Assembly (NCBI GenBank): GCA_029556615.1
Contig: JAKQDD010000002.1
Location: 62,001-126,000 of the forward strand
Origin: Verrucomicrobiota bacterium
GTDB taxonomy: Bacteria; Verrucomicrobiota; Verrucomicrobiia; Limisphaerales; J093
DNA length: 64,000 bases
Direction: 5' to 3'
Shown in pieces: positions 314 to 63,179 of this stretch. Under the pieces are notes generated by a model that saw only the letters and a program-made list of their open reading frames with translations, was not told where the DNA came from and did no database searches. The position numbers and the translations under genes are program-made. Every line of letters starts with the position of its first letter. Position 1 is the first letter of the stretch.

Positions 314-350
314 GTCTTGTAGTCGATGAGTAAAAGGTCTTTGGAGCTGA
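314..350 (-). promoter_or_regulatory. Class-1 leaderless promoter for the PAPS-reductase-like gene
   Basis: On the minus strand TCAGCTCC (350-343), then 18 nt, GACTAC (324-319), then 5 nt, then ATG at 313. This is a perfect match to the consensus seen across the window. Confidence 0.8.
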
Positions 351-351
351 G

Positions 352-388
352 TCAGCTCCGGACCGTGACGAACAACCCAGGAAGGCGC
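352..388 (+). promoter_or_regulatory. Class-1 promoter, divergent partner
   Basis: TCAGCTCC at 352-359 lies 29 nt before ATG 389. The -11 to -6 slot reads CAGGAA rather than GACTAC, and an AGGAAGG ribosome-binding-like stretch precedes the ATG. It sits one base from the minus-strand copy, giving a near-palindrome at 343-359. Confidence 0.65.
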
Positions 389-724
389 ATGGACAATCCT
401 CCCAGGTGCGCGTACGTCCCCTGTTCGGAGCCGGTCGTCACGACCCTCACACACAAGAAGGACACCTACCCCCTGTGCTTCGACCACCTCTGCGTAGCGG
501 CCCAGGAGGGGCTCATTAACGAGGAGCGAGCACTCCGCGCGGAGACACGCTACGCGATCCTCGCGGGCACCCCGTCCTCGGTCAAGACTCCGTCCTTGCT
601 CAAGGTTCGCCTCGACGAGCTACGCGCCGTCATACGAGACCCGTCCCAGCGGCCTCCGGGCCGAACTCCGTGTCGAGGATCAACCCCCAGCAGAGCCCGT
701 GGGGTGTCACCACGACCTGCTTGA
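389..724 (+). CDS. Small putative zinc-binding protein
   Basis: 111 residues. Start chosen at 389 because it lies 29 nt after TCAGCTCC and has an AGGAAGG just upstream; an in-frame ATG at 326 would begin before the promoter. Residues ~7-45 contain CAYVPC and, later, PLCFDHLC, a Cys/His arrangement able to hold one zinc. The C-terminal ~30 residues are Arg/Pro-rich and overlap, tail to tail, the last 95 bases of the convergent Ppx/GppA gene, so the true C-terminus may be unstructured. No family recognised. Confidence 0.55.
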   Translation: MDNPPRCAYVPCSEPVVTTLTHKKDTYPLCFDHLCVAAQEGLINEERALRAETRYAILAGTPSSVKTPSLLKVRLDELRAVIRDPSQRPPGRTPCRGSTPSRARGVSPRPA

Positions 725-1559
725 CGGTTGGGCGATCAACGAGGACGTCGAGCGCGATCGCGCCGGCCCGGAGCACCTTGGCGCGCTCAGGTCCCACCCA
801 GGGCAGCGCGGCGAGCTCCTCCTCCTTCCGGCCAATGGTAGCTTCCACCAGGGCCAGGAAGGCCCTGGCGGGGCACTGAACGACCCCGCTTGGGTGGGTC
901 AGGTCCTGCTCGGAAGCCTTCCTGCGCGCGTCGGCCACCACGGCGCCTACTACCGCGTTCGCCGTCCCTCCCGTCAAGACGACCGACCCTCGCGGCTCAG
1001 GAGCCGTGGCGATCGCCTTACCAACGGCTGCGCGCACGTCGCCCACCAGGTCACCCGACTCGGCGAACCTGTCGGTGAGCGTCGTGGAGCCGAAGGGCAA
1101 GCTCGCCCAATCGGTGGGACGACCCTTGGACCCGATGACGACCTCCGTCGAACCTCCCCCCAGGTCGATGAGGGTCACCTCCGTCTCAATGCCCGCCGCG
1201 TGACAGGCCGCGATGAAGGAGAGGCGCGCCTCCTCCTCCCCGGTGATGATGCGCAGCGGGATGCCGAGCGCCCACACGCACTCAAGGAGGTCCTCGGCGT
1301 TGCGCGCGCTTCGCAGCGCCTCTGTCCCGACGCCCACGAGGCGCTCAGCCCCGAGCTCCACCGCGCGGTCGTGGAAGGCGTGCAGCGCGCGCAGCGCGGC
1401 CTCGGCCGCGTGGGAGTCGATGACCCCCGTCTGAGCGAGGCCCCGGCCGAGCCGAGGGGTCGCGACCTGGTGCTCCAGGATGCTCGTCCCCTCGGGAGTT
1501 CGGTCAGCGACGATCAGGTGGATGGTGTTGGTGCCGCAGTCGATGGCCGCGATCCGCAT
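630..1559 (-). CDS. Ppx/GppA-type exopolyphosphatase / (p)ppGpp phosphohydrolase
   Basis: 309 residues, the length of the catalytic Ppx/GppA module without the extra C-terminal domain. ASKHA motifs are intact: DCGTNTIHL at residue ~7 (phosphate 1), GTEALRSARN near 78, GEEEARLSF near 105, IDLGGGSTEV near 131 (phosphate 2), LTGGTA near 194 and a late VTPHGLCWGL. The family hydrolyses polyphosphate chains or converts pppGpp to ppGpp. In a phage it may adjust the stringent response or phosphate supply; that role is inference. No class-1 promoter: TATGTA lies 5 nt before the ATG. Confidence 0.85.
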   Translation of the reverse strand: MRIAAIDCGTNTIHLIVADRTPEGTSILEHQVATPRLGRGLAQTGVIDSHAAEAALRALHAFHDRAVELGAERLVGVGTEALRSARNAEDLLECVWALGIPLRIITGEEEARLSFIAACHAAGIETEVTLIDLGGGSTEVVIGSKGRPTDWASLPFGSTTLTDRFAESGDLVGDVRAAVGKAIATAPEPRGSVVLTGGTANAVVGAVVADARRKASEQDLTHPSGVVQCPARAFLALVEATIGRKEEELAALPWVGPERAKVLRAGAIALDVLVDRPTVKQVVVTPHGLCWGLILDTEFGPEAAGTGLV

Positions 1560-1574
1560 GTCGATACATACCCT

Positions 1575-1611
1575 TCAGCTCCGGTCTTTGGTGTCCACGC
1601 GACTAGGCGGC
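1575..1611 (+). promoter_or_regulatory. Class-1 leaderless promoter
   Basis: TCAGCTCC 1575-1582, N18, GACTAG 1601-1606, N5, ATG 1612. It lies in the 52-nt gap to the divergent Ppx/GppA gene. Confidence 0.8.
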
Positions 1612-2412
1612 ATGAACCGGCCATCCTGGATTCAAGCCCTCCACCTCAACACGACCTCGAAGCCTGATGAGGACAAGCGTGCGGACCTGCTGAACCTCTA
1701 CCGCATCTACCGCGCGCTGGACGGCGTCGAGGATGCCGCCGTCGTACTGCGCACATCCGTGCTCAACCGCCTGGCACCGTTCCTCGGCCTGCCGGTGTCG
1801 CCCGAGAGCACATTTCCTTCCACGCTGGTGGTCACCGCTTGTGACCCCAACACAGTCCTCCTCGCCGGACTGCGCTACGACTGGACCGTCATGGCCCACG
1901 CGATCTCCGTGGTGGGAGAGTGCTACGTCACGGGAACGTCGTTCAGCCCGCGCTGCTTGGTCAGCCCTCCGGTCGGAACCCCTCGGTGGGAACGGACGCT
2001 GCGGCTCCTGGCGATGGCGCATACCTCCGCTAACCACGAGGAGGTACGTGGGGCCAAGGGGTACGCGAGCGCGTTCACCGACCCCTCGTACCTCCGCACG
2101 CTGCTGTCCGAACTATGCAAGGTCCGCGAGGTGGTCACCTCGACGGAGGAAGGCTACAGGTACAGCGAGCTTCGAGAGAAGCTGCTGATCAACTTCATGC
2201 TCCGGGAGCTCTGCCGAACCGACGAGGAGACCTCGCGGTCGCTCTTGTCGTTCGACCACAAGAACGGGGAGTTTCGTGTGGGCGGCAAGCCCTATGGCAA
2301 GCAGGTCATCCTCGGGTCGATCGACCGCGTGGCCGTGTCGACGATACAGCAACTAGCGCACCACCCCGGCGAGTGGAACGAGGCCGGCGAGTGGGTCGGA
2401 GGGAACACCTAA
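1612..2412 (+). CDS. Unknown soluble phage protein
   Basis: 266 residues, start set by the class-1 promoter. No signal peptide or membrane segment. The C-terminal third is charged and helical (SELREKLLINFMLRELCRTDEE). First gene of a three-gene operon: its TAA overlaps the next ATG as TAATG, implying translational coupling. No family recognised. Confidence 0.7.
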   Translation: MNRPSWIQALHLNTTSKPDEDKRADLLNLYRIYRALDGVEDAAVVLRTSVLNRLAPFLGLPVSPESTFPSTLVVTACDPNTVLLAGLRYDWTVMAHAISVVGECYVTGTSFSPRCLVSPPVGTPRWERTLRLLAMAHTSANHEEVRGAKGYASAFTDPSYLRTLLSELCKVREVVTSTEEGYRYSELREKLLINFMLRELCRTDEETSRSLLSFDHKNGEFRVGGKPYGKQVILGSIDRVAVSTIQQLAHHPGEWNEAGEWVGGNT

Positions 2413-2681
2413 TGTCCGCCCAAAAAGACCGTCCTCATCCAAACCATCCCGCCTGCTGCGCGTACCACCAGGCGGGCCACCCGTGGTACCAGGCGTGCAA
2501 CGAGAACCCCAACCACGAGCCGTTCGGGATGCCGTACTTCGCGGCCGAGCCCAAGTCGCTCTCCGCTGGGGTCTGCCCCTACTGCTCGGCGTCCGTCTCG
2601 ATGCGCGGAAACAAGGGACCAGAGGCGCGACACGCGCACCTCATGCAGACCTGTCCGCGACGCCCCCAAGGGACCCCATGA
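2412..2681 (+). CDS. Small zinc-finger-like protein
   Basis: 89 residues. A His/Cys-rich N-terminus (ACCAYHQAGHPWYQAC) is followed by CPYC near residue 55 and a later HAHLMQTC, consistent with a C-x2-C...H-x-H...C zinc site. Coupled on both sides: it starts inside the upstream TAA (TAATG), and its TGA overlaps the next ATG (ATGA). Function unknown; nucleic-acid or protein binding is possible. Confidence 0.65.
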   Translation: MSAQKDRPHPNHPACCAYHQAGHPWYQACNENPNHEPFGMPYFAAEPKSLSAGVCPYCSASVSMRGNKGPEARHAHLMQTCPRRPQGTP

Positions 2682-3502
2682 ACAAGATCCTCTTCTGCAT
2701 GCTGGTAGGCCCCGACATCGCTCAGGTGCAGGCCACCGTGAGGTTCGACCGAGACCCCATCGTGCGCCCCACCGCTACCGTACGGTTCAACGACCCCCAC
2801 AAGCCTGAGATCCAGGTCGACTGCCCGCCGCTTCGTAACGTGTCGGACGCCTGCACGCTCATGACCTCCAGCCTCCTACGGGCTGTCACCCTGGAGGCGC
2901 GTCGAGTCGCGTCGCGCGTCCGGTACATGGCAGGCAAGTCGAAGGCCCCCTCGGCGCACTTCGGGGACCTCATCGCCTGCACGAACTGCGAGGCGCTCTT
3001 CCAGGTCAACGCCAAGGACTGGAAGCCCGGCATCGTGGGCCCCTCCGACGGCATCTATCAGGCGGGCTACGTGGTCTACTGCCCCCGCTGCAAGGGTCGT
3101 GTGGATGTTCGACTCGTAGACGACGTGTCCGCCATCGGGCCTCGGCACGAGTTCAAGGCTCCTCCCGGCGTGGCCGAGGGGAACCTAAACTCCTGGTTCC
3201 GGTCCGTCGACGTCCCCAAGGTCTACGACCACATGCGCAAGGTGTTTCCCCCAGCGAACAACGCGACCAACGACCTCCAACCCACGGGTCACGGGTTCTA
3301 CGTGCGCAAGCGTGGGAGCCTCGGTATCGAAGTGGCCCACTGCGGGGTCCACAACCACGATGAGAACGTCCTCGACCGCTACGAGAAGCACCTGGCGAGC
3401 AAGTTCGCCGTGCGCCGCACGTACCAGGGACTTAGCTGCATCCCCCACCTGTACGTGTTCCCGCGCGAGCGCAAAGCTCCCGCGAGGCAGAAACGCGCGT
3501 AG
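2678..3502 (+). CDS. Zinc-ribbon-containing phage protein
   Basis: 274 residues. A central zinc ribbon is formed by ACTNCEALF (~residue 103) and VYCPRCKGR (~residue 137), about 30 residues apart. The N-terminal ~90 residues have alternating beta-like strands (VQATVRFD, TATVRFND). Last gene of the 1612-3502 operon, entered through an ATGA overlap. No enzyme motif seen. Confidence 0.65.
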   Translation: MNKILFCMLVGPDIAQVQATVRFDRDPIVRPTATVRFNDPHKPEIQVDCPPLRNVSDACTLMTSSLLRAVTLEARRVASRVRYMAGKSKAPSAHFGDLIACTNCEALFQVNAKDWKPGIVGPSDGIYQAGYVVYCPRCKGRVDVRLVDDVSAIGPRHEFKAPPGVAEGNLNSWFRSVDVPKVYDHMRKVFPPANNATNDLQPTGHGFYVRKRGSLGIEVAHCGVHNHDENVLDRYEKHLASKFAVRRTYQGLSCIPHLYVFPRERKAPARQKRA

Positions 3503-3515
3503 CTGGCGCGGGCCG

Positions 3516-3552
3516 TCAGCTCCTGTAGGCGGACAAGTATCGACTACTCCGC
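3516..3552 (+). promoter_or_regulatory. Class-1 leaderless promoter (consensus)
   Basis: TCAGCTCC 3516-3523, N18, GACTAC 3542-3547, N5, ATG 3553. Full match; lies wholly in the 50-nt intergenic gap. Confidence 0.85.
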
Positions 3553-3930
3553 ATGAGTGTCGTTGACTTCCCCGATACTGACTCCCCCCTCATCACCTAC
3601 CAGATGGACGTGTGCGGCCGAAACGTCGCCGTCATCGCCCTCTACGACGGAGCGAGCCAAGAGCTCGCGCGCGCGTCCGTCCACTTCCTGCCCGCCTCGC
3701 AGGTGCGCGTCGTCTGCACCGTGGCGGCCTACTCGGGCGACGACCTCACCCGAGCGCTCCTGGTCGGCGAGGCCATCCGGGGGAGCCTCGCGCGCGCGCA
3801 GCGGATCGCCGTGGACCCCCAGGTCCTCGCCGCCGCCGACGCCTGCTTCGACCTCGCGGAGCCGCGCCCCTTCGGGGAGCTCGCCCGGATGGTGATCGCC
3901 GCGGGTGCCAAGGAGGCACCGCGCGCCTGA
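3553..3930 (+). CDS. Unknown small phage protein
   Basis: 125 residues. Predicted beta-rich N-terminus (QMDVCGRNVAVIALYDG), then helices (DDLTRALLVGEAIRGSLARA). No recognised motif. Heads an operon with the next gene through a TGATG stop/start overlap. Confidence 0.65.
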   Translation: MSVVDFPDTDSPLITYQMDVCGRNVAVIALYDGASQELARASVHFLPASQVRVVCTVAAYSGDDLTRALLVGEAIRGSLARAQRIAVDPQVLAAADACFDLAEPRPFGELARMVIAAGAKEAPRA

Positions 3931-4502
3931 TGGGCGTCAAGGACTTTCCCCGCCGGCTCCCCGACCCGGTCCTCGCGCCGCTCGTGGTCGGGGACACGAC
4001 CTACCGGCTCACCTTCGTCCTCACCCTGGACTTCTGGGGCGAGGGGTCCTCCCTCCGCGAGGAGAACCGCCTCCTGCCGCTCGACGGCTTCGGGCAGTGC
4101 CTGCACGACGAGTACTTCGACCTCGCCAGGGCGCGAGCGGCCGAGTTCCTCGCGGACAACGGCCTCCGCCTGTGCGACGACCGGTCCACGGTCGCGGGGA
4201 TCCGCATGGTCGTGGACCGCCGCGAGGAGGACCGTCCCCCCGTCCCGGCCGGCTGGACGGAGAACGTCGGCGTCTACTCGCGCGAGGTGGGGGACCTGTA
4301 CCTCCAGGTGGTGCGCTGCGACGACCTCAAGGCCCCCACGGCGTACGCCGCCTCCCTGTGGCGGGGCGGCGAGGTCCTCTACACCCAGGACACCCTGGCC
4401 CTCACGCTCGCGACCCGCGCGCTCCTGCGCGCGGCCGAGCGGTCAGCTCCGGTCTCGTCCGCCACCTCGACTACCCCTCATGAAGACTCCAAAGCTCCCT
4501 GA
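3930..4502 (+). CDS. Unknown protein with a C-terminal GWT/LYLQV domain
   Basis: 190 residues. Residues ~108-172 read GWTENVGVYS...LYLQVVRCDD..., and the same pattern (GWT, then LYLQV and Cys-Asp/Glu-Asp, then a helical ALxxAxxAALAAEQ-type end) recurs in the next gene, so the two share a domain. The last ~16 residues run across the downstream promoter and start codon; they are low-complexity (SSATSTTPHEDSKAP). Function unknown. Confidence 0.65.
   Translation: MGVKDFPRRLPDPVLAPLVVGDTTYRLTFVLTLDFWGEGSSLREENRLLPLDGFGQCLHDEYFDLARARAAEFLADNGLRLCDDRSTVAGIRMVVDRREEDRPPVPAGWTENVGVYSREVGDLYLQVVRCDDLKAPTAYAASLWRGGEVLYTQDTLALTLATRALLRAAERSAPVSSATSTTPHEDSKAP
4443..4479 (+). promoter_or_regulatory. Class-1 leaderless promoter inside upstream CDS
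   Basis: TCAGCTCC 4443-4450, N18, GACTAC 4469-4474, N5, ATG 4480. It lies within the 3' end of the preceding gene, so the spacing is kept even at the cost of overlap. Confidence 0.8.
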
Positions 4503-5535: not shown

Positions 5536-5565
5536 TTTCGTCAACCCGCCCGCTGGGCTCCGAAC
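5535..5565. repeat. 31-bp repeat, copy 1
   Basis: Matches 8075-8105 at 29 of 31 positions (differences at 5548 and 5560). The ends are partly inverted (GTTTCG...CGAAC). It abuts the -35-like element of the next gene by two bases, a position suited to an operator or a terminator. Confidence 0.7.
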
Positions 5566-5600
5566 AGCTCGGGTCCGTCCGCGGCCAGCGACCTCCCCCC
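5564..5600 (+). promoter_or_regulatory. Class-1 promoter variant
   Basis: ACAGCTCG 5564-5571, N18, GACCTC 5590-5595, N5, ATG 5601. Two mismatches in the 8-mer but exact spacing. Confidence 0.65.
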
Positions 5601-5849: not shown

Positions 5850-5886
5850 TCAGCTCCGATCCGACCCGACCGGGCGACTCTCCCCC
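5850..5886 (+). promoter_or_regulatory. Class-1 leaderless promoter
   Basis: TCAGCTCC 5850-5857 directly follows the upstream TAG; N18, GACTCT 5876-5881, N5, ATG 5887. Confidence 0.8.
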
Positions 5887-6270: not shown

Positions 6271-6274
6271 GCCC

Positions 6275-6311
6275 TCAGCTCCATCCGACGGATGCACATC
6301 GACTTCACGCC
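6275..6311 (+). promoter_or_regulatory. Class-1 leaderless promoter
   Basis: TCAGCTCC 6275-6282, N18, GACTTC 6301-6306, N5, ATG 6312. Confidence 0.8.
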
Positions 6312-7160: not shown

Positions 7161-7426
7161 CCCCGCGCCCGCTGCTTGCTGCTCACCCCCATCACCCCAG
7201 GGTGCGACACCTCCAGCGCGTGCACCATCTGCGCCACCGAACACCGGTCCGCCAACCGCCTCACGTTCCCCAGCGCCCACGCCAGGTCCACCTGGTAGAC
7301 ACGCCCGTCTACCTCCACCCATACATCCCCATCCCGCTCCACCACCCGCGCCACCCACCTCGACGGAAACCCCGCGTACTCCGCCGCCCGGTTGATCTCT
7401 TCCTCTAGATCCTGCGTCGTCGCCAT
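7157..7426 (-). CDS. Unknown small protein
   Basis: 89 residues. Start at 7426 chosen because a class-1 element lies exactly 29 nt upstream. WVARVVERDGDVWVEVDGRVYQVDLAWAL looks like a short beta meander followed by helices. Plus-strand bases here are C-rich although the gene is on the minus strand. No family recognised. Confidence 0.65.
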   Translation of the reverse strand: MATTQDLEEEINRAAEYAGFPSRWVARVVERDGDVWVEVDGRVYQVDLAWALGNVRRLADRCSVAQMVHALEVSHPGVMGVSSKQRARG

Positions 7427-7463: not shown

Positions 7464-7464
7464 G

Positions 7465-12458: not shown

Positions 12459-12469
12459 GTCCGAGCTTA
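12459..12469 (-). promoter_or_regulatory. Possible class-2 leaderless -10 element
   Basis: Minus strand TAAGCT (12469-12464) then 5 nt then ATG 12458. No -35 match. Confidence 0.35.
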
Positions 12470-12790
12470 CCCGGAAGCCCCGACGACGAGGTAGGTCCCC
12501 CCGGGGGCTCGCCCCTCGCGGACCAGGGCGTCGAGGATCGTCTCGATCGAGACCGACACGATCGGGGGGTCGGGGGCGCGCAGCGCCTCCCACTTGGCGT
12601 GCTGGACGGGGCTCAGGTGGCCGCTCGCCTCGTGCAGGCGGGGGAGCGGGGGCAGGCGGGCGAGCTCGAACAGGGCGATCCTGCGGGGGTCGAGCACGAA
12701 GGGTGCGACCTCCCGGCCAGCGACCTGGGAGGCGAAGCGGATGAGCTCGTCGAGCTCAACCACATGGACCTGCTTGGTGAGGATGTGCAT
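12467..12790 (-). CDS. Unknown small protein
   Basis: 107 residues. A beta-helix-beta-like start (HILTKQVHVVELDELIRFAS) and an alpha-rich C-terminus. Overlaps the upstream gene by 35 nt in another frame. No family recognised. Confidence 0.6.
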   Translation of the reverse strand: MHILTKQVHVVELDELIRFASQVAGREVAPFVLDPRRIALFELARLPPLPRLHEASGHLSPVQHAKWEALRAPDPPIVSVSIETILDALVREGRAPGGTYLVVGASG

Positions 12791-13124
12791 GCGGCAAATC
12801 TACCCCGCGCGTTGCGTGCAGGGCGTCCCTGAGCTGCTGGCGCTCGGCCTCCGACCTGCGCAGGTGGTCGACGAGCGCTCCGACGTCGAGCGCGATCGTT
12901 CCAAGAAGGGACAGGACGGGGCTCGGCAGGTCCCCTCCGAACACCATGGGGGCCATCACGGCCGTCTCGGCGCGCTCTAGCGCTCCATGGATGACGTCGG
13001 ACGCGGGGGTCGCCTCCAGGCGGACGAGGCGGTCGATCGCGTCGATTAGGAAGGGGTGCAGCAGGTGCGGGTCACAGCCCTGGTGCAGGGCGTCGGCGAG
13101 GTCTTGGGCAGGAAGGCTCAACAT
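12756..13124 (-). CDS. Unknown helical protein
   Basis: 122 residues, mostly helical, with a hydrophobic centre (AVMAPMVFGG, VLSLLGTIALDVGALV) that might associate with membrane but is short. Start fixed by a class-1 element 29 nt upstream. Function unknown. Confidence 0.6.
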   Translation of the reverse strand: MLSLPAQDLADALHQGCDPHLLHPFLIDAIDRLVRLEATPASDVIHGALERAETAVMAPMVFGGDLPSPVLSLLGTIALDVGALVDHLRRSEAERQQLRDALHATRGVDLPHAHPHQAGPCG

Positions 13125-13162: not shown

Positions 13163-14218
13163 CTACGAGACGAACGGGACGGGGTCGGAGATCGCGTAGA
13201 AGGTGTCGGTCAGCGACGAGAACGGAACCCCATCAAGGGACCCCTTGCCCGAGACGGCCGCGTTCTGGACCTTCACGGTCGAGAACAGGGGCGTCCCCTG
13301 CACGGCGGGGTTGCCCGCGACCCAGTTCGAGGGGGCCAGCAGGTGGTAGTAGAGGCCGACCGACACGACGTTCGGGGCGACCGCGCCCGTCGTGTTCACG
13401 AGCGGCTTGGCCGTCGCGGTGGTGGTGCTCTGCGGGCAGTAGCCGAGCACCACCACGATGGTGTTGTCGGCGGTCGCCGTCGACAGCCGACCGTCCACCG
13501 CGACGCGCCCGATGATCGTCGAGTAGTCGACGATCGCCAGGAGCCCGCGCGCGTGCGCGCTCGTGGGGCCGAACCGCAGCACCTCGGGCGACTCGCCCCC
13601 GACGAGGTTGGTGTTGGTGAGCTCGGAGTACTTCACCTGGAGCAGCCCGGAGTCCTGCACGACCGCCTGGAAGGCCGCGCTCAACGGGGCGAGTTGGACG
13701 AGGTTCGCCTCGACGGTGGCGTTCACGGTCGAGGTGTTGTCCATGAGGAGGCTCACCGCGCTGCCCGTGACGATGTCGTCCTCCAGGCCGAGCGCCTGGG
13801 GGTTGGAGCCGGTGAAGTGGATGCCGGCCGGGGCCCCGAGCGGGGCGTTCACCCCCATGCCGCGCCACTCGACGAACGCCCCGAACGGGTCGGGCGCGAG
13901 GTCGACCACCACGTAGCCGTTGAAGAACGAGATCGCCTCGTCCTTGGTGCCCGCCCCCCACACGTGGACGTGCTTGCGCAGCGTGACCACCTGGTCGGGG
14001 TAGGCCCCCGGCAGCACCCGCACGAGGGCCGGGTTGAAGAGGGTCCGCTCCCCCCCGGCCGCCGCCGCGTCGATGCCCGCCTGGATCGTGTGGTAGGGGG
14101 CGTTGGTGCCCGCCGGACCCACGACGAACTCCTCGGGACGCGGCTGGACCGCGTCGGCGAACTGGTAGTTGAGGGGCGTGCAGCGCAGGTTACGGCAGTG
14201 GCTCGTGCGGTAGCTCAT
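13163..14218 (-). CDS. Right-handed beta-helix virion protein (tail spike/fibre-like)
   Basis: 351 residues. After residue ~40 comes a pectate-lyase-like opening: FVVGPAGTNAPYHTIQAGID, then ALVRVLPGAYPDQVVTLRKH, the classic 'it is listed as an indexed array of events' start of such repeats. Many short Val/Thr-rich strands follow (TVNATVEANLVQL, NTIVVVLGY). This fold is common in phage tail spikes and fibres that bind or cut surface glycans. No catalytic residues could be assigned. Start overlaps the end of the upstream RadC-like gene by 29 nt. Confidence 0.7.
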   Translation of the reverse strand: MSYRTSHCRNLRCTPLNYQFADAVQPRPEEFVVGPAGTNAPYHTIQAGIDAAAAGGERTLFNPALVRVLPGAYPDQVVTLRKHVHVWGAGTKDEAISFFNGYVVVDLAPDPFGAFVEWRGMGVNAPLGAPAGIHFTGSNPQALGLEDDIVTGSAVSLLMDNTSTVNATVEANLVQLAPLSAAFQAVVQDSGLLQVKYSELTNTNLVGGESPEVLRFGPTSAHARGLLAIVDYSTIIGRVAVDGRLSTATADNTIVVVLGYCPQSTTTATAKPLVNTTGAVAPNVVSVGLYYHLLAPSNWVAGNPAVQGTPLFSTVKVQNAAVSGKGSLDGVPFSSLTDTFYAISDPVPFVS

Positions 14219-23611: not shown

Positions 23612-23647
23612 TCAGCTCCGCCATGTGTCTCGCAGCTAGAAAACAGT
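23612..23647 (+). promoter_or_regulatory. Class-1 promoter of the CarD-like gene
   Basis: TCAGCTCC 23612-23619, 28 nt, ATG 23648, with TAGAAA at -11 to -6. It fixes the start well inside a longer open frame. Confidence 0.7.
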
Positions 23648-24808: not shown

Positions 24809-24845
24809 TCAGCTCCGCAAAGCTGCTCCCCGCGGACTACCTCGC
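24809..24845 (+). promoter_or_regulatory. Class-1 leaderless promoter (consensus)
   Basis: TCAGCTCC 24809-24816, N18, GACTAC 24835-24840, N5, ATG 24846. Confidence 0.85.
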
Positions 24846-31363: not shown

Positions 31364-31400
31364 GGGAGTGGGTCGGGTTAGATGTCTACTTCGGAGCTGA
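31364..31400 (-). promoter_or_regulatory. Class-1 promoter, GTG start
   Basis: Minus strand TCAGCTCC (31400-31393), N18, GACCCA (31374-31369), N5, GTG 31363. Exact spacing to a GTG supports that start. Confidence 0.75.
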
Positions 31401-31613: not shown

Positions 31614-31624
31614 GCGGCACCCTA
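31614..31624 (-). promoter_or_regulatory. Possible class-2 leaderless -10 element
   Basis: Minus strand TAGGGT (31624-31619), 5 nt, ATG 31613. Confidence 0.35.
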
Positions 31625-31630
31625 CCCGCT

Positions 31631-31667
31631 ACAGCTCCCAGCGTCACGGCCGCATCGAGGTGGCTTC
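31631..31667 (+). promoter_or_regulatory. Class-1 promoter variant
   Basis: ACAGCTCC 31631-31638, N18, GAGGTG 31657-31662, N5, ATG 31668. It shows that the long in-frame extension upstream is not translated. Confidence 0.7.
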
Positions 31668-33688: not shown

Positions 33689-33725
33689 GTGGGGGGGTGA
33701 TTCTGCGGACCGCATGCGGAGCTGA
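33689..33725 (-). promoter_or_regulatory. Class-1 promoter, divergent pair (left)
   Basis: Minus strand TCAGCTCC (33725-33718), 29 nt, ATG 33688. Five bases separate it from the oppositely oriented element at 33731. Confidence 0.7.
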
Positions 33726-33730
33726 GAAGG

Positions 33731-33767
33731 TCAGCTCCGTACGGTTGTTGATCCTCGACTACACGGT
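33731..33767 (+). promoter_or_regulatory. Class-1 promoter, divergent pair (right; consensus)
   Basis: TCAGCTCC 33731-33738, N18, GACTAC 33757-33762, N5, ATG 33768. Confidence 0.85.
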
Positions 33768-37024: not shown

Positions 37025-37032
37025 GACCCCGT

Positions 37033-40000
37033 CTACCCCACGGGTCCCCTGCGCGAGCTGTCAGGGTCGCCGAAGCCCGAGAACGCAGCCTCAAGCTGCC
37101 GAGCCGCCTGGTCAACCTGCGCGACTGTGCTCGACGACCCTGCGGGACGCACGCCTGGCCCGGCCCCACGCACGGCGTCCTGCCGCTGCCGCCACTGGGG
37201 TGCGACTTGGTCGGCGCGCTGCACGAGCGCCTCCGTCACGCTGCCTGGGTCACCGAGCAGGTCCTCGTCCACCACTTCGCCTGGCGGGGACACCTTGCAC
37301 ACGCAGCCCGTGTCGAGAGGACGTCCGGGGTCGAGCGCCATGTCCCCGAGCTCCGTCGGGGTGTTGCCCGCAGGCAACTTGTGGACGCCCTCCCGACCAT
37401 TGGCGACCCAGTTGAGGAGGTCGACCTCCAGCTGGTCGGTGTCCTTCTTCTTCCGCAGGAGGCCGAGCTCTAGGAGGTCGTCGTCCTGGAGGTTCTCGCG
37501 GAGCGTCCGCGCGACCTTCTCAGATAGCTCGGCGCTGGGCTTGCGGTTGGTAACGACCTCGTCGAGTACCTGGTCCACCGTCGTCCGGCTGAGCAGCGAC
37601 AGGGGGTCCTGCTTCCGCAGGTCAGACCACGCCCCACCCGCACCAGGCTGGACGCCTCGTCCGTATCGGTAGGCCCCGATAACCTGGTAGCCCCCCTCGT
37701 CGGATACAGGGAACACCGGTGCCTGTACCTGGACCTCCTTCCTCTTGGTTTCCTTGACCTCGCGCCGGTCCTGGGAGGTCACGGAGACGCGGAGGCGGCC
37801 CGCAAGGCTTCCCCAGAAGGTGTCGATCGCCTTTCGACTCACATCCGGGCCGTTGGCCCCTGTGACCGCGCGCTCCCATGCCGAGGCGTTCGCCTCCACC
37901 TGAAACCGCATCGAGTCGGCCAGGCTCGCGCACGCCGCCTCCACCCAATCAGGGGTTCCCAGGGGTCCAAGCGGAGCGTCTGTCCGCGCGGTCTGTCCCC
38001 TCGCGATGACCTCCGCGGGGAGCGTCGGAACCCCCGTACGGGGCAGGTCGAGAGCTACAGCCGCCCGCGCAGCCGCCTCCGCGATGGGGACCGCCACAGC
38101 CGCCTCCGCCCAGGGAGTCGCCATCACGTCCTTCAGGACAGATGAGGCGGATATGCCCGCGTCCCGCGCGGCCCCAAGGAACCGGCTCAGCGCATCGGAA
38201 CGCACCTCTCGCAGGATGCCCGTTCGGTTCGTCCACCCCTCGCTCTCCCGCACGGGCAGGTCGTAACGGATGGAGACCGGAGCGAGACGCACCTCCTGCA
38301 CGTGGTGCGACGGGATCACCTCTCCTCGCGGGGCTGTCGTCTTGCTCGTGAGCACCCGCACACCGCGCTGCGGGCGCACCTTCGCCACCTTGACGAGGTC
38401 GAGCCGCTCAGCGGTTTCCGCGGGCAGCAAGCCCCGCGTCGTCTCACCCACGTAGGCTGGGTCCACAGGCTCGGGCACCGTCTCGACGTCGGTCGTCCCC
38501 CCCGATTGCCGGAGCAGCACGATCGACGGAGGAGCCTGCTCGCTCGGGTCGGGGTGTGAGGCGGAGTAGTAGCGGTACCGCCCCGGCACCTCGTCCGACA
38601 GGAAGGCCGCCTTGCGGTCCCCGAGGATGCGCAGCAGGTCCGCAGTGCGCCGGGCCTTCTCGTCCTCAGGACCCGTGGGGGCAGAGCCTGGACCTCCCAG
38701 CCGTTCTAGCACCCGCACAAGGATGCCCGCCTCGGCCGCCTCTTGGGAGGAAAGGCTCGCGGACGAGTCTAGCCCCCGGAGCTGCTCGCGGAGCTTGGCA
38801 GCCTCGTCGCGCTTCTTCTGCGCCGCCTTCCCGCCGGTGGGGTCCGAACCTGCTGACTCGGCCTCCCGCAGCTTGGCCTCCAGCTTGGCGCGCTCCTTCT
38901 GCGTCGCCTTCCTGGACCGCGCGATCACCGACGCGGACTTGAGCACGTCCACTCCACCGGGCCCGGCCCCACTGCCCGCCGCCAGACGGACGGGCCTAGA
39001 CCCTCCCCGATCATCTGGGATGTCCGCCTCGTAGGTCCCGTTACCCAACCGGCGGATGATGCGCTGGTCCGCCGCCGTCTCCAGCAGCGCGCGCAGGACC
39101 GCCGGGTTGTCGATGTTGTCGAAGCCCACGCCGGCTCGCAGGTACACGGGGTCGAGACGCGTGGGGTCGAGCGCGAGGATGACGTTCGGGAACCCGACCT
39201 CACGGAGCGCCCCGTCATCGGTGCGTGCGACCACCGACCGGGGGGGATTCGACGGGTTCCCCAGGGTCACCGCCTGGATCCCGCGCGCCTCTCCTCCAAC
39301 TACGCCCGGAGGCCGAAAGGGCTCGCGACGCGCGACCATCTGGAGGGTCGTCTGGGCGTTGCCCCCCTGCGAGTAGCTGTGCGTGATGCCCGTCACGTAG
39401 TAGAAGCAGTCGCGCGACCGCACGTAGACCGGGTAGCCTGGCCGCAGCTCTGGGCGCAGCGGGATCGTGACGGTGGCCGTCGAGGTGAGGGCGTTCGACT
39501 CATCGACCTTGGACGCCGCCAGGTAGAAGGCGGTCGTCGGGTTGGTGACGGAGGCCGACTCGATCTCCAGGGGCCTCCACCCGAACTGAGCGACGAGGCG
39601 GTAGTCGACGTACTGCCCCTCGATCCCCCAGACGCCCTCGGTCCCCGTCCCGGAGAGGTTCTCGAACCGAGAGCCTCGAACTCGCGCGTACGTGACCGGG
39701 GGCTCCTTCTCGTCGGCGTTCCACGACAGGATCTCGTGGGGCTCGATGCGGTAGGCCCGCAGCGGGCTCGTGTCCATGTTGTACATCTTCGGCTTGAAGA
39801 CGAAGTCACCGTCGACGTCCTGGAAGAACTCAAAGCCCGTCACCTCGCAGACCTTCTGCGCGACGTCCATCTTGGTCTCGTAGGCCGACTCGAAGTACTG
39901 GAACTGCCCCCACTCGCCGAGGTTGGAGACGAACGCCTGCATCTCGGCGAGGTTGAACTCCAGGGGAGCGCCCTTGGAGGAGGTCCGCAGCGTGTCGCTG

Positions 40001-43140: not shown

Positions 43141-43177
43141 TCAGCTCCAGTCGTACGAAATACATCGACTCGTACGC
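43141..43177 (+). promoter_or_regulatory. Class-1 leaderless promoter
   Basis: TCAGCTCC 43141-43148 begins at the base after the upstream TAG; N18, GACTCG 43167-43172, N5, ATG 43178. Confidence 0.8.
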
Positions 43178-46912: not shown

Positions 46913-46920
46913 GGGGACTT

Positions 46921-47898
46921 CTACCCTCGAATGAAGGGGCGCGGGAAGAGCGGTCCTTGCGGTTGGCTCTGTGCGGGGTTCGGCTCGGAGGGAAGCACGA
47001 CGGTGTTAGTCGACGGGAGACGCGTCGTGGGCAGCGGGGCCAGGGTGGCTACCTGCTCGTCGAGCACCATGTCGGCGACCATCTGGAGCTCGATCCGGAC
47101 GCCGCCAAGCTGGGTCCGCTCGTCCTCGGCCCAGGACAGCTGCTCGAGGTGCCCTGAGTACGTCCATCCGTCATAGCGCACGGTGGTGCGACCCACCGCG
47201 ATGGGAGCCACCACCTCACCGTAGGGGTCGTAGACGCTCCCGCCACTCTGGTAGAGCGCCAGCAGGGCCTCCAGTTGCTGCCAGGCCGCTGAGTCCGCGC
47301 GGCTCGCCCGCTGGATCCCGCGACCTGGCGATAGGAACGCTCCGCACTGGACGGAGATGGCCAGGTTCTCCGCCTCCTCCCCCCAGGGTTGGTAGACGTA
47401 GCCGTAGCGGCTCCGGTCCTGGAGCTGCTGGACCTTCGTGCGCGTCACCGAGAACGACGTGGGGTTGATGTACAGGACGATCGGTGGGGTCGAGGCGACG
47501 ATGTCCACCTGCTCTCGCACCGACCGGGCCACCTGGCGGTCCCCCACCTGCGGGGACGTAGGGTCCAGCTCGCGCCCTCCTCCGGTGGCCGACCCCGTGA
47601 ACGCCTCCCCCGTCCGCAGGCCGGCAGATCTCCCCCGAGACCCCTTGGCGGCCGGCGTCACTCCGCTCACCGCTCCCGCGTAGTTCGAGGGTACGGCCTT
47701 CTTGTCCTTGGGGGTCAGCGCAGGAGGCGGGTCGACCCGCAAGAGGAACGGAGCCCACCCGCGCAGGTTCGCGTCACCGCTCGGGAGCAGCGGGGGTCCC
47801 TCACGCTCCGTCACCTGGTAGGCAGGGGAGGTGGGTAGGCGGTAGTAGTACGTCGCGGGTGCGACCTGCGTCGTCGGGGGGTCGTCCGCGCGGGCCAT
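46921..47898 (-). CDS. Tail/baseplate protein, paralogue of 55026-55625
   Basis: 325 residues. PPIVLYINPTSFSVTRTKVQ, then WGEEAENLAISVQCGAFL, LEALLALYQSGGSVYDPYGE and TVRYDGWTYSGHLEQLSWAE share a segment-by-segment pattern with VLHANPSQVSVTRPK..., YRDLLALFRNNACVY... and VTYDGASYRGWWSSFTSAED in the later gene. Phage tail-tube-associated proteins often carry this NPxxxSVTR pattern. N-terminal ~110 residues are Pro-rich linker. Confidence 0.65.
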   Translation of the reverse strand: MARADDPPTTQVAPATYYYRLPTSPAYQVTEREGPPLLPSGDANLRGWAPFLLRVDPPPALTPKDKKAVPSNYAGAVSGVTPAAKGSRGRSAGLRTGEAFTGSATGGGRELDPTSPQVGDRQVARSVREQVDIVASTPPIVLYINPTSFSVTRTKVQQLQDRSRYGYVYQPWGEEAENLAISVQCGAFLSPGRGIQRASRADSAAWQQLEALLALYQSGGSVYDPYGEVVAPIAVGRTTVRYDGWTYSGHLEQLSWAEDERTQLGGVRIELQMVADMVLDEQVATLAPLPTTRLPSTNTVVLPSEPNPAQSQPQGPLFPRPFIRG

Positions 47899-52058: not shown

Positions 52059-52090
52059 TACGCCCTCACGCTGTTGATCAGGTTGTCCAT
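52058..52090 (-). CDS. 10-codon leader peptide (MDNLINSVRA)
   Basis: ATG 52090 lies exactly 29 nt after a class-1 element and is followed by ten codons ending TAA, whose last base is the A of the next ATG (TAATG at 52060-52056). A leaderless ribosome starting here would terminate on, and may re-initiate at, the next gene. Peptide MDNLINSVRA has no family. Confidence 0.6.
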   Translation of the reverse strand: MDNLINSVRA

Positions 52091-52127
52091 GAGGACGTGT
52101 CGGGTCCGTCGCGCGGGGCGGAGCTGT
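52091..52127 (-). promoter_or_regulatory. Class-1 promoter of the ABC ATPase operon
   Basis: Minus strand ACAGCTCC (52127-52120), N18, GACACG (52101-52096), N5, ATG 52090. The 8-mer directly follows the HTH gene's stop. Confidence 0.75.
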
Positions 52128-57197: not shown

Positions 57198-57199
57198 CC

Positions 57200-58542: not shown

Positions 58543-58544
58543 GA

Positions 58545-58974: not shown

Positions 58975-59011
58975 GGGGGAGAACCGAGGCGGCCCGGAGG
59001 AGCCGAGCTGA
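58975..59011 (-). promoter_or_regulatory. Class-1 promoter variant
   Basis: Minus strand TCAGCTCG (59011-59004), 29 nt, ATG 58974; the 8-mer abuts the upstream mini-gene's TAG. Confidence 0.65.
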
Positions 59012-59089: not shown

Positions 59090-59104
59090 CCTCCCCCCAG
59101 ATCG

Positions 59105-59141: not shown

Positions 59142-59216
59142 GCGGGAGATGTGGTCGCTAGGGACCTACGACCCGTGGGCGATAACGGCCGCCCAGAAGA
59201 TCCAAAGGATCACGAA

Positions 59217-59260
59217 GGCGCGGAGGAAGTCAGGACCCAGCTTCTGGGTTCCTCCGCGCC
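59217..59260 (+). other. Strong RNA hairpin upstream of 59287 gene
   Basis: A perfect 12-bp outer stem (59217-59228 with 59249-59260), a 7-nt bulge, then CCCAG-CTT-CTGGG inside. No U-run follows on either strand. It lies 26 nt before the start codon and could act as a leader structure, attenuator or mRNA-stability element. Confidence 0.6.
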
Positions 59261-59286
59261 CCGTCCATCCGACCAAGAGGACTGCC

Positions 59287-59592
59287 ATGACCAAGGCTAA
59301 GCCGCGCACCCGCAAGTCAACATCCACCCCGTCCGCCGAACCCCTCACCGCGCAGGGCCTGCGCGACATCACCGAGCGCGCCGAGCAGGCCCGCAATACC
59401 GCGCACGAGCGCCTGGTGACGCAGCAGTACAACGACGTCCTGGTGTTCTGTAAGCCTTACGCCGAGCAGAGCCGGCACACGTCAGAGGACCGTTACGGCG
59501 AGCTCCACGCCGACACGATTGCCCGCCTGGAGGCCGACAAGATCATCGTGGAGAAGCGCGGGCCAACGCACAGCTTCCGCTTCCACTGGTAG
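59287..59592 (+). CDS. Small basic helical protein
   Basis: 101 residues from ATG 59287 with AAGAGGA 6 nt upstream. Basic N-terminus (TKAKPRTRKSTSTP), then helices (GLRDITERAEQARNTAHERL) and a beta-like end with IIVEKRGPTHSFRFHW. Resembles a winged-helix end but is not assignable. The frame is open back to 59140, so a longer form is possible. Confidence 0.6.
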   Translation: MTKAKPRTRKSTSTPSAEPLTAQGLRDITERAEQARNTAHERLVTQQYNDVLVFCKPYAEQSRHTSEDRYGELHADTIARLEADKIIVEKRGPTHSFRFHW

Positions 59593-59612
59593 GGAGCCCG
59601 TCACCCCCGCGG

Positions 59613-59624
59613 TAGGATGGGGGC
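59613..59624 (+). promoter_or_regulatory. Class-2 leaderless -10 element
   Basis: TAGGAT 59613-59618, 6 nt, ATG 59625. Confidence 0.5.
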
Positions 59625-62600
59625 ATGTCCAAGCGATTCCCCCTCGTGTTCGGTGGTGGTCCCTGGGTCTCGCGGCTAGGTCCCCACCTTCCCGCGACGA
59701 TCGCTGACGTGGTGCTTCGGGTCGCGGGGAAGGTCGCCGAGGTCGAGGACCTTGACCCCTACCTCGGAGCGGTGCGCCCCAAGACCCCCGTCCCGCCGGG
59801 CACGCTGGTGGAGATCGAGGCCATCTCGGTTCCCCACGCGGTCCTCCCGATGCGCGTCGGTCTCCCCGGTGCACGCCTCGGGCAGGTCGGGATGCCCGTG
59901 GGACCCCCCGGGTCGCGCGGGCGCATGACGCTCGTGGTGGGAGGTCCGGTTCCAAACCCGCAGCCCCTGCGGGTCGCCCATCGGTACCTCGCGCAGGACC
60001 GCTCTCGTGCAAGCCTCCTCGGAGACCCCATCGGGATGCGAGTAGGTCGCCGCCTCGGCTACTCTCCACCCACTCCCCTGTCAGGGCGCTTCGTCCGGGT
60101 GCGCGTCTCGCTCGACCCCGCGGCGTTCGCCTCTCTCTGGGACGTGCGTGGGTCTGGAGACGCCAGACCCACCCAGGATGGTGTGGTGGTGATGGCTGAC
60201 CCTGACGCGGTGTTCGCCACCACGCCAATTCCTGCGCGCGACGCGGGGCGCAGCTTCCTCACGGGGCGCGTCGTCGTAGACCCTCCCGACTCCCCCGCCT
60301 TCTCCCCCCGCGCGGCCATCGGCGTGCATGACGGAGGGACGATGGCCCTTGCGGCCGTCGTTGACGTCGAGGGGTTTCGTCACCTGGGCCTCCTCACGGG
60401 CAACGGGGAATGGACCGACGCGTCCGCGTGGGGGCTCTTTCCGGCCCTTGACCTGCGGGCGGAGACCCCCACGACGCTGCGTGTCGTCAGCCAGACAGGA
60501 CTCACCAGGGCGCTTCGACCGGGAGACCGCCTACGGATTGCCTCCGGGCCTCAGGCGGGAGCTCTCGTGATCGCACGCGTGCACCGGAACGACCTGTCTC
60601 AGGTGCTGCTGGACCTCGTCGATCCCCTGCCGGTAGACCCGGACGAGGAGGGAGGACGCAGCCTTCGAGGAACCCTGGACCTCGGCGTGACGTCCTCGAC
60701 CTGGATCCTCCGGGTCGACGTGCGCGGAGCGGAGGTGTCGGCCTCCGCAGCCTCCGCGGAGGCCGCGCTCGTCCAAGCCAGCGGAGGCGCGAGACCTCCG
60801 CTCCGCGCGCCCCTCCTCCTTCGGGGCGTCGCGGACCCTCTGACGCAGGGCGCTGGGATGTTCGGGTCTATCGTGGGTCGGTCCACCTGGCAGGCTGTCG
60901 TGGGAGAGGCGTACGGCGCGCGCCTTCCCGACCGTGCTCTCGTCGTCGACTCCCCCTTACCGGTTGCCTTTCCATCGGCCGACTGGGTCGAAGTACCTCC
61001 CGCAGAGGTGACGCCCTCCGTGGGTCTTGTCACCCTGCGAGGGGACGGAGGAGCTCATCCGGCCGGCGCGGCCCTCTTAACCCCGCTCATGGAGCGGGGC
61101 GCGATGGTGCAGGTGGTCTCGACCGCGGCCGTAAGAGAGGAGACGGGAACTGGCGACCTGTGGGTCGACGTGTGCGACGGGGATCGTCGGGTTGTCCTCG
61201 CCTCCCTCGTCACCGTCATGGACGGAGGCGTCGAGCGCGTCTGGTTGCCGGACGGAGCTGGGTTGTCGTCTGGTACCGATCCTGCGCTGTCCGGGTGGAT
61301 GACGACCGGGGGGAGATGGGTGTCCTCTCCCGTCGCGCTGCGCGCGGACGGAAGCCCGTCCTCCGACATCGACCTGCCCACCGCGTTCCTGCTGCGCATG
61401 TCGGCGCGGGTGGACCCGGGGGGATCGGACGTACGCCTCGTGCTCGGCGACGCCGACCACGGAGTCGAGGTGCACCTGCGGCGCGGGGTCGCGGAGGTCC
61501 GCGCGGGTGCGGCCTTCCGCACGAGCGTCCCCATCCTCGCGGGTCCCGTGCGCGTCGAGGTGGGTATCTCCTTCGTGGGAGGCATCGTGTTCGTCGAGGG
61601 GGCCCCCCCTATCCCCCTCTCGCCTGTCGACTTGGCGGGATCCGTCCGCGCCTCGCCGGGGGCCACTGTGGCCGCGACCTCGGGAGCCCGCTTGTACCGC
61701 GTTGCGGTCTTCCTGCCCCCACCCGCCGGGGCTCGTCGCACGGTGGGGTTGCTGCTCGACCCCGCTAACCCTGGTGCCCTCGCGTCCTGGCGGCTGCCCC
61801 TCAAGGACGTAGACCCGCGGGTGTCAACGAACCTTCGCGTCCTGCTCGACCCAGCCTGGGGAGCGGTGGTACAGGCCCCAGGCACCCCACTCCCCTCCGG
61901 GTGGCTATCTGACAGGATCGACGACGCGAGCGTGGTGGTTCGCGCCGGGTACGAGGAGGCCCCGAGTGCGAACGGGTCCGCTCAGGGAGTGCTCGTAGGC
62001 GTCGGACCCGCCTCTCTCGGCCTGGTCGAGCACCTGGGTGCGCGCGTGCGCGTTGCGGCTCGTGACGTTCCCGGCGAGGTGGGACCGCAGCGTGCTGCGG
62101 TCCTCGGACGCAGCGCGATGACCTCCTCGGGCGACCACCTCTCAGACGCGCTGCCCGCAAGGTTCAGCGTGCCCGCACGCGCTGGCGTGGCCTCGATGGA
62201 TGCGGCCGGCGTTCGCCTCGCGCGCCTGTTCCGCGCACGCCCCCTAGGCACGACTCACTGGTGGGAACCCCCCGTGGTCGAGCTGCGCGACGACGGTGCG
62301 GTCCAGCTACCTGTGGTGTACGAGGGCGTTGTGGAGGTGGAGGGAGTGCCCGCGCGCATGACCCACCCCGAGACGCTGGAGTCGATGGCCGTCGCGGGGT
62401 CGCCGCACGAGCACGGGGAGGGCACCCCGCCCTTCTACCCCCTGTGGATGAGCCGCCCCACGCGCAGGGACTACGCGGACCCTGACTCGACGGGAAAGTC
62501 CGCGGGCTACGACCCCCTCGACGTGGACCGCTCGCTGCTCCTACAGGCGGAGCGCCGCATCGAGGACGGGGGTGTTCGTCAGCGCGTCTGGGTCGCGAGC

Positions 62601-62867
62601 GACGACCCAGATGACGGACCTCCAACGACAGGCGACGGGCCGGGCGACGACGGGGGTGGAGGGCCGAACATCGAGCTTGAGGGCTACGAGGAGACGTTCC
62701 CGCGCCCGCGGGACGGCACCAACGTCGGGGCGATGCTGGTCGGGGGCCTGTTCCGCCCGCGCGGAGGGAAGCATCCGGGAACCCCCACACTCGACCGCAG
62801 GGGTCAGGGACCCGCCTACGTGCTCGCGCCGGCCCCCTGGCTCGTGTCGATCGAGCTACTCCCCTAG
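59625..62867 (+). CDS. Large putative virion structural protein
   Basis: 1080 residues, almost all beta: Val/Arg/Gly-rich strands recur (GRFVRVRVSLDPAAFASLWD, RVEVGISFVGGIVFVEGAPP), with a concanavalin-like feel at ~560-720 and a Gly/Asp-rich linker (DDPDDGPPTTGDGPGDDGGG) near 1000. No enzyme motif. Likely tail or baseplate decoration; placement and size are the only support. Stops in CTAG shared with the convergent gene. Confidence 0.6.
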   Translation: MSKRFPLVFGGGPWVSRLGPHLPATIADVVLRVAGKVAEVEDLDPYLGAVRPKTPVPPGTLVEIEAISVPHAVLPMRVGLPGARLGQVGMPVGPPGSRGRMTLVVGGPVPNPQPLRVAHRYLAQDRSRASLLGDPIGMRVGRRLGYSPPTPLSGRFVRVRVSLDPAAFASLWDVRGSGDARPTQDGVVVMADPDAVFATTPIPARDAGRSFLTGRVVVDPPDSPAFSPRAAIGVHDGGTMALAAVVDVEGFRHLGLLTGNGEWTDASAWGLFPALDLRAETPTTLRVVSQTGLTRALRPGDRLRIASGPQAGALVIARVHRNDLSQVLLDLVDPLPVDPDEEGGRSLRGTLDLGVTSSTWILRVDVRGAEVSASAASAEAALVQASGGARPPLRAPLLLRGVADPLTQGAGMFGSIVGRSTWQAVVGEAYGARLPDRALVVDSPLPVAFPSADWVEVPPAEVTPSVGLVTLRGDGGAHPAGAALLTPLMERGAMVQVVSTAAVREETGTGDLWVDVCDGDRRVVLASLVTVMDGGVERVWLPDGAGLSSGTDPALSGWMTTGGRWVSSPVALRADGSPSSDIDLPTAFLLRMSARVDPGGSDVRLVLGDADHGVEVHLRRGVAEVRAGAAFRTSVPILAGPVRVEVGISFVGGIVFVEGAPPIPLSPVDLAGSVRASPGATVAATSGARLYRVAVFLPPPAGARRTVGLLLDPANPGALASWRLPLKDVDPRVSTNLRVLLDPAWGAVVQAPGTPLPSGWLSDRIDDASVVVRAGYEEAPSANGSAQGVLVGVGPASLGLVEHLGARVRVAARDVPGEVGPQRAAVLGRSAMTSSGDHLSDALPARFSVPARAGVASMDAAGVRLARLFRARPLGTTHWWEPPVVELRDDGAVQLPVVYEGVVEVEGVPARMTHPETLESMAVAGSPHEHGEGTPPFYPLWMSRPTRRDYADPDSTGKSAGYDPLDVDRSLLLQAERRIEDGGVRQRVWVASDDPDDGPPTTGDGPGDDGGGGPNIELEGYEETFPRPRDGTNVGAMLVGGLFRPRGGKHPGTPTLDRRGQGPAYVLAPAPWLVSIELLP

Positions 62868-63142
62868 CCCGGAGGCGGCTTGCGTAAGTCCGGGGTCTGC
62901 ACATCCTCGAAGTAGGTGGGATAGTTCGGGTTCGTCAGGGTGGCGCGGATCGACTCTGGGATCTCTCCGCGCAGCCCCTGCTGCCAGATCTTGAGGGTGG
63001 TCAGCAGTTCCCTAGCGCCTCCATCGGAGGCTAAGCCGCCTCGGGCTGCGTCATCGGCCAGCTTGTAGGCCGCGAGGCGGATGCGCCGTTCGATCTCATC
63101 CAGGCTCTGAGCCTGGTCTGATAGTTTTGTGGGCTCGCTCAT
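62864..63142 (-). CDS. Small helical protein
   Basis: 92 residues from ATG 63142. KLSDQAQSLDEIERRIRLAA and ARELLTTLKIWQQGLRGEIP; C-terminus Pro-rich. Resembles small phage tail chaperone or terminase-associated helices but is not assignable. Class-1 start. Confidence 0.65.
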   Translation of the reverse strand: MSEPTKLSDQAQSLDEIERRIRLAAYKLADDAARGGLASDGGARELLTTLKIWQQGLRGEIPESIRATLTNPNYPTYFEDVQTPDLRKPPPG

Positions 63143-63179
63143 AATCCCACATCGAACGCGGGGGCCCGTCCAGAGCTGA
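63143..63179 (-). promoter_or_regulatory. Class-1 promoter variant
   Basis: Minus strand TCAGCTCT (63179-63172), N18, GATGTG (63153-63148), N5, ATG 63142. Confidence 0.7.

Follow-up and report, generated by a model that had tools for sequence, protein, structure and literature searches.

The DNA examined here is a 64,000-nt window of contig C242 (JAKQDD010000002.1, positions 62,001 to 126,000), taken from the 7.2-Mb, 260-contig assembly of a Verrucomicrobiota bacterium (GCA_029556615.1), in which a first-pass annotation had noticed a bipartite element at a fixed distance from many start codons. We conclude that this element is probably a phage-specific leaderless promoter, standing at ~100 starts and read by host RNA polymerase together with a divergent sigma factor of the extracytoplasmic function (ECF) type that the phage itself encodes. 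The element, referred to as the class 1 unit, has the form TCAGCTCC-N16-TCGACTA-N5-Y-ATG and was defined from 66 sites on the phage contigs, namely C37, C98, C103 and C242, which total 426.5 kb and carry 459 called genes, 50 tRNAs and one transfer-messenger RNA (tmRNA). In the proposed mechanism, host RNA polymerase carrying a 257-aa sigma factor would bind TCAGCTCC-N16-TCGACTA-N5-Y, with this protein and not another factor reading the boxes, and the first base transcribed would be the A of the start codon. The sigma gene would first be switched on from a second leaderless class of promoter, GGGTANNNT, in a cascade that would make class 1 the middle regulon.

The 66 sites were picked solely by TCAGCTCC-N29-ATG, leaving the remaining columns free to vary. 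A second box, TCGACTA, emerged at -13 to -7 (C at -12 in 53 of 66 sites, G at -11 in 51, A at -10 in 57 and C at -9 in 52); column -6 held no information, and position -1 was C in 58 sites and T in 8, a pyrimidine in every case. The -35 box spans -37 to -30, and because the -10 box stops six bases short of the start codon, the geometry is that of a sigma-type promoter that would place +1 on the A of the ATG. As the first-pass annotation had claimed, all 21 starts that it named carry the 8-mer (0–2 mismatches) at exactly 29 bases, each with C or T at -1. Its second box, GACTAC at -11 to -6, needed correction: the exact hexamer occurs at 5/21 starts and at least three of its six positions agree at 15/21, and the true box proved to be TCGACTA at -13 to -7, the final C being unconserved. 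Its remark that the boxes are unlike those of sigma70 was sound, the second box being TCGACTA and not TANNNT. In a position-specific scan 17 of the 21 starts scored at least 11 bits, with weak sites at 7426, 13124, 41783 and 45991 falling below, and two starts were added, 23648 (spacing 28) and 36566; the latter, with a frame of just three codons, is probably spurious.

To count without selection, all 6-mers were tallied by their distance, whatever it was, from each candidate ATG start (645 on the four phage contigs), and CAGCTC was found at -36 of 102 of these starts (binomial p ~1e-150); the same count gave 20 starts for TCGACT. This is the cleaner test, since the scanning matrix was built from the 66 sites, every one of which has ATG at offset 0. 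With the matrix, a start codon lay at offset 0 for 97 of 156 positions of at least 12 bits, as against 0–9 at each of 20 other offsets, and ten first-order Markov sequences gave 0–3 in the same scan. Chance or composition was ruled out by the unselected count together with the offset and Markov scans. At a threshold of at least 11 bits, 102 start codons were recovered (98 of them ATG), versus 4 matches in the reversed sequence, an imperfect null because TCAGCT of the -35 box and TCGACT of the -10 box are mirror images. A blindly called gene shares the reading frame of 82 of these 102, and in 65 cases its called start is the very same codon; the remaining 20 are in frame with none.

In the genome-wide fixed-distance search that the first-pass annotation had suggested, exact TCAGCTCC-N29-ATG occurs 68 times in the whole source genome, with 66 of these on four of the 260 contigs (backward control, 7). 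Its distribution rules out a host promoter. Each of 57 relatives of the source genome has 0–11 matches to the exact box, spacing and ATG, and in 400 kb of the assembly's non-phage DNA no fixed-distance 6-mer did better than GGCAGA, at -14 of 5/394 candidate starts, nothing comparable. A motif common to many phages was also rejected, the full pattern having 1 match in viral_contigs and 13 single matches in genome_contigs, a yield judged near chance. In the record with the sole viral_contigs match (L037), allowing up to 2 mismatches gave 6 matches, with 1 in the control.

A census of the phage contigs gave 114 units of at least 14 bits. The start codon lies at +1 in 79 of them and an ATG is one base off in 3; 11 lie within genes, and 10 stand between genes, out of range of any called start, three of these (C37:59421, C37:32513 and C98:2209) preceding open frames. 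A leader separates the unit from the called start in 9, and 6 of these leaders contain a Shine-Dalgarno (SD)-like motif; in the clear cases (e.g. C37:10091, C103:26517 and C242:180066) the codon is 10–14 nt downstream with AGGAG or similar near +1. Units also stand before a tRNA-Met gene (predicted +1 at C242:38966, gene at 38974) and before the tmRNA gene (predicted +1 at C103:13247, gene at 13260). The rigid box spacing, the units before tRNA and tmRNA, and the SD-leadered genes further downstream together argue for a promoter and not a translation signal. A translation element or operator, with transcripts starting further upstream, would account for a distance to the ATG that is fixed in most cases, but it sits badly with the units before tRNA, tmRNA and SD-leadered genes, with a box that is not SD-like and with intergenic gaps that are often just the 37-nt unit; we regard it as extremely improbable. 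The tmRNA tag reads ANDNSVRLAA. Another unit, with its predicted +1 at C242:57461, is found 361 nt upstream of an array (C242:42995-57100, minus strand) that holds 42 of the 50 phage tRNAs.

Sequence features expected of a leaderless promoter were found: a pyrimidine at -1 followed by a purine at +1 (66/66), a preference for ATG (98/102) and scarcity of SD, which was seen at 1/66 exact-box starts versus 86/517 boxless candidate starts of the phage. With SD nearly absent and -1 always a pyrimidine, the first base of class 1 transcripts is likely the A of the start codon, which would make them leaderless. Start codons most often lie 37–38 nt beyond the upstream stop, a gap as long as the unit, and the TAG of the upstream gene directly abuts the box in 13/102 cases. 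The earlier proposal that the promoter sets the 5' end at the start codon has thus gained independent support, in the form of sequence evidence. G is depleted at +4 to +16 of the leaderless genes (p 9e-5), and no difference in 5'-end mRNA structure was found in them. An S1 domain as the cause of the missing SD was ruled out, none of the 8 matches to this domain lying on phage contigs.

The candidate sigma gene, sA, lies outside the window at C242:20701-21474 (minus strand; 257 aa) and was reached by way of relatives of the phage. Compared alone with Pfam, its product matched solely r4_2, at an E value of 0.042 and below cut-off. The family as a whole falls short of the curated Pfam sigma cut-offs: r2 was matched in 6 of 7 members at sub-cut-off E values of 9e-5 to 0.07, with none for P0123, and one relative, G069, passes the r2 cut-off at 24.7 bits. 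The family profile matches sigma-H across profile positions 139-257, and the AlphaFold model of P0121 has helices at 89-178 and 191-256, the fold matches being ECF sigmas. Fold and profile thereby agree on an ECF-type layout, in which sigma2 is followed directly by a sigma4 helix-turn-helix (HTH) with no sigma3; the family carries an N-terminal beta domain besides. On the strength of these models, the product of sA is predicted to be a divergent ECF-like sigma factor. In a set of 23 proteins drawn on in this work, G066a and G071 were left aside, since their sequences seem to come from the wrong frame. With the annotated sigma of Tunturi_5 as query, no match was found in the phage.

The second promoter class consists of (C)GGGTANNNT at -15/-14 of 33 ATG starts that lack a class 1 box, and has no visible -35, as little information lies upstream of the element. 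Among 457 called starts with any codon, GGGTA stands at -14 of 20 and at -15 of 13, versus 0.6 per other offset, and the GTG of the sigma gene itself has GGGTA at -15. The extended pattern GGGTANNNTN4CATG occurs 9 times in the source genome, 7 of them on phage contigs (control, 4). Class 2 resembles a housekeeping extended -10 with leaderless starts, and this likeness, together with the GGGTA before the sigma gene, makes the order class 2, sigma, class 1 plausible. Taken together, class 2 and the placement of the sigma gene suggest a cascade. Beyond 70 kb of C37, where the terminase, portal and head-protease block lies, class 1 is nearly absent (2/68 genes vs 80/391, p 1.2e-4), which fits a middle regulon. 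A Pfam family could be given to 9 of 10 class 1 proteins, including RecA, DNA ligase, NAPRTase, PAPS reductase, a radical SAM protein and a 2OG-Fe(II) oxygenase.

Relatives of the phage were gathered by alignment, 80 being kept of 162; a single terminase query against viral_contigs found no relative. Ten were sampled, W01, G061, G073 and G080 first and G059, G060, G064, G074, G085 and G087 in part. In each of the first four the sigma family is accompanied by a bipartite motif of its own, similarly spaced: CTAAAAA..CCGATAGG (46 pattern matches), GGTAAC..CGAGTAGG (25) and GGGGTTCAAC..CCGTATAG (22) for W01, G061 and G073, respectively, and GGGTT..CCGTA in 14 upstream regions of G080. In the partial samples, a motif was found in G060, G064, G085 and, at four sites only, G074, and was not seen in G059 and G087; the sigma family was found in G064, G074, G085 and G087, and not in G059 and G060. 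Over the ten, the motif is present in 8, the sigma family in 8 and both in 7, the promoters of these seven having leaders. None has a fixed-distance box like that of this phage, their start-anchored signals being SD-like or weak. Since the relatives have the sigma family and private promoters and none has the fixed-distance box, a shared sigma-promoter system is likely, from which the leader would then have been removed in this phage. More tentatively, we propose a widespread group of huge phages with a sigma family of their own, barely seen by curated libraries, and a private promoter code in each phage. In the present phage the promoter would have become joined to the reading frame, RNA and protein synthesis beginning at one and the same base in roughly a quarter of the genes, and the leaderless cascade would run in two steps, GGGTANNNT turning on the sigma and the sigma turning on TCAGCTCC-N16-TCGACTA.

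Of the recognisers offered in the first-pass annotation, a phage sigma factor is borne out by the divergent sigma-like gene in the phage and in 8 of the ten relatives sampled. A CarD-dependent promoter found no support, the sole PF02559 match in the source genome, in a 1278-aa frame, being on C73, off the phage contigs. Two further genes carry weak sigma region-4 signals, sB (C37:150839-152296, plus strand) and the adjoining sC (C37:149367-150488, minus strand), whose homologues also adjoin each other in relatives L056 and L259. Class 1 could be real and leaderless and yet be read by one of these two with host RNA polymerase: homologues of sB occur in W01, G061, G073 and G080 and those of sC in G061 and G080, relatives of both give weak PF04542 matches, and sB has a region-4-like HTH (E 0.017). 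Against PDB, however, their profiles found generic HTH or nothing convincing, and the 257-aa protein has the clearer sigma2-sigma4 fold, sB and sC being judged by profiles alone, so that we consider either of them unlikely to be the reader.

Another way to read the boxes would be a phage activator of the MotA kind that sits on TCAGCTCC, replaces the -35 contact and recruits the host sigma70 holoenzyme. The -35 core is indeed far commoner at its position than the -10 core (102 and 20 starts, as counted above), and exact boxes occur with weak -10 partners, as at starts 389 and 33688. MotA-type promoters keep the sigma70 -10, whereas the -10 found beside this box is TCGACTA and differs from the TANNNT of class 2, and both boxes vary between relatives; such an activator, for which no search aimed at MotA or AsiA was made, is decidedly unlikely. 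An unrecognised RNA polymerase of the phage's own might be sought among several proteins of more than 1000 aa without a family in the scans made. Here the suggested genome search for a sigma factor or polymerase subunits gave the sigma-like gene and, for RNA polymerase beta (PF00562), a match on C12 only, although very divergent subunits are possible and beta' was not searched for. Phage-encoded beta of the phiKZ/AR9 type was thus not found by PF00562, and the geometry is that of sigma promoters, which leaves a phage polymerase very improbable. A PF00940 search carries no weight, as it gave no match in any control genome. The 257-aa sigma factor acting with host RNA polymerase is therefore retained as the probable reader.

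Predicted class 1 promoters lie on both strands of the window. At its left end two stand back to back: 314..350 (minus strand; start 313, ATG), with TCAGCTCC at 350-343, a TCGACTAC box, spacing 29, C at -1 and 28.9 bits, and 352..388 (plus strand; start 389), with an exact -35, a weak -10 (CCCAGGAA) and 17.5 bits, which opens a 111-aa frame outside the blindly called genes. The other plus-strand units are 1575..1611 (start 1612, 25.9 bits), 3516..3552 (start 3553, 27.5 bits, both boxes consensus), 4443..4479 (start 4480, 27.9 bits), 5564..5600 (start 5601, 15.2 bits, which would lengthen the blindly called gene by 114 nt at its 5' end), 5850..5886 (start 5887, 24.6 bits), 6275..6311 (start 6312 of a metallo-beta-lactamase-fold protein, PF12706; 26.1 bits), 24809..24845 (start 24846, 20.8 bits), 31631..31667 (start 31668, 13.2 bits, a 207-aa frame outside the blindly called genes), 33731..33767 (start 33768, 24.6 bits) and 43141..43177 (start 43178, 28.0 bits), with a probable one at 23612..23647 (start 23648, 13.4 bits, spacing 28 and not 29). 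On the minus strand are 31364..31400 (start 31363, GTG, 21.1 bits), 33689..33725 (start 33688, 16.1 bits, exact -35 box and weak -10), 52091..52127 (start 52090, 14.0 bits), 58975..59011 (start 58974, 13.6 bits, TCAGCTCG box) and 63143..63179 (start 63142, 14.1 bits, TCAGCTCT box). Start 52090 opens a 10-codon open reading frame, MDNLINSVRA (52061-52090, minus strand), whose stop overlaps the next ATG (TAATG) and which is a possible leaderless coupling peptide.

Class 2 GGGTA elements of the window are all on the minus strand, at -14 of start 1559 (1560..1573), of candidate start 12458 (12459..12472; 81 nt upstream of the blind call), of start 31613 (31614..31627), of start 37024 (37025..37038) and of start 46912 (46913..46926), and at -15 of start 12790 (12791..12805). 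Starts 1559 and 31613 are divergent to class 1 starts 1612 and 31668, so that gaps of 52-54 nt (1560-1611 and 31614-31667) carry class 2 on one strand and class 1 on the other.

The four phage contigs are likely pieces of one huge phage genome of ~427 kb, as a 141-base overlap joins one end of C37 to one end of C103 and reciprocal best hits to LR745208.1 (400 kb of its 485 kb fetched) fall on all of them (63 in total: C242 36, C37 18, C103 8 and C98 1). Profile matches place terminase, portal and head protease on C37, DNA polymerase A and a DnaB-like helicase on C242, and baseplate and endolysin proteins in the window. The phage also carries a Cpn60/TCP-1 chaperonin homologue (C242:1458-2924, minus strand) and a 1738-aa DUF6094 methyltransferase-helicase protein split by Hint/LAGLIDADG (intein-like) domains (C103:32334-37550, minus strand). 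As for the bacterium, the assembly's RNA polymerase beta points to a Verrucomicrobiota affinity: 14 of its 120 best hits are named, 9 of these 14 being Verrucomicrobiota, with Paceibacterota the nearest named. Co-binning is no proof of host, since no SD peak was found in 400 kb of the assembly's non-phage DNA (394 candidate starts) and SD does occur at boxless phage starts. The source-genome contigs C12 and C29 show a slight TANNNT excess at -15 to -11 (23 matches over 394 candidate starts), and with the missing SD peak this indicates that some starts of the bacterium itself may be leaderless.

On the proposed scheme, if true, a ribosome-binding leader would be missing from roughly one in four of the phage's genes (82 class 1 in frame and 33 class 2, of 459 called), and promoter choice would be tied directly to start-codon choice, which would supply a rule for fixing gene starts in annotation. 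With the sigma family, transcription in uncultured huge phages becomes open to test, each phage calling for a single protein, a core polymerase and several predicted promoters. SD sequences are noted as rare in huge phages that have a possible ribosomal protein S1 (PMC7162821); that link would not explain this phage, no S1 domain having been found on its contigs, and the case offers a concrete comparison for the remark.

Phage capture of host polymerase by a sigma factor is known from gp55 of T4. Jumbo phage group 2 sigma factors likewise capture host polymerase with no phage RNA polymerase and are described as single-HTH or RpoD-like (PMC7824862), whereas the family here has ECF-like sigma2 and sigma4 and an N-terminal beta domain. 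The proteins phiEco32 gp36 and SU10 CDS32 are phage-encoded ECF sigmas that direct polymerase to phage middle and late promoters (PMC4281155). The motif reported there is a single tAATGTATAtA, lying 6–8 nt ahead of the start points at six promoters, in contrast to two boxes at ~100 leaderless sites here. AR9 and phiKZ share phage-specific promoters throughout a giant genome, but they rely on phage multisubunit polymerases, and AR9 leaders measure 26–491 nt (PMC5312081). LR745208.1 (485 kb) comes closer, with a terminase 49% identical, a sigma homologue and its bipartite motif CTAAAAA..CCGATAGG (46 matches in 400 kb), and differs in that its start codons follow leaders of varying length, many showing a GAGG- or AAGG-like motif. 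Searches of the openly licensed PubMed Central literature found neither a leaderless promoter regulon described in a huge phage nor an account of this sigma family. Phage sigmas and giant-phage promoter maps are already known, and the leaderless huge-phage variant looks new; its nearest counterpart in form is found in mycobacteria, where transcription and translation begin at the same base for many genes, although there the leaderless genes are the host's and here they belong to a phage with its own promoter sequence.
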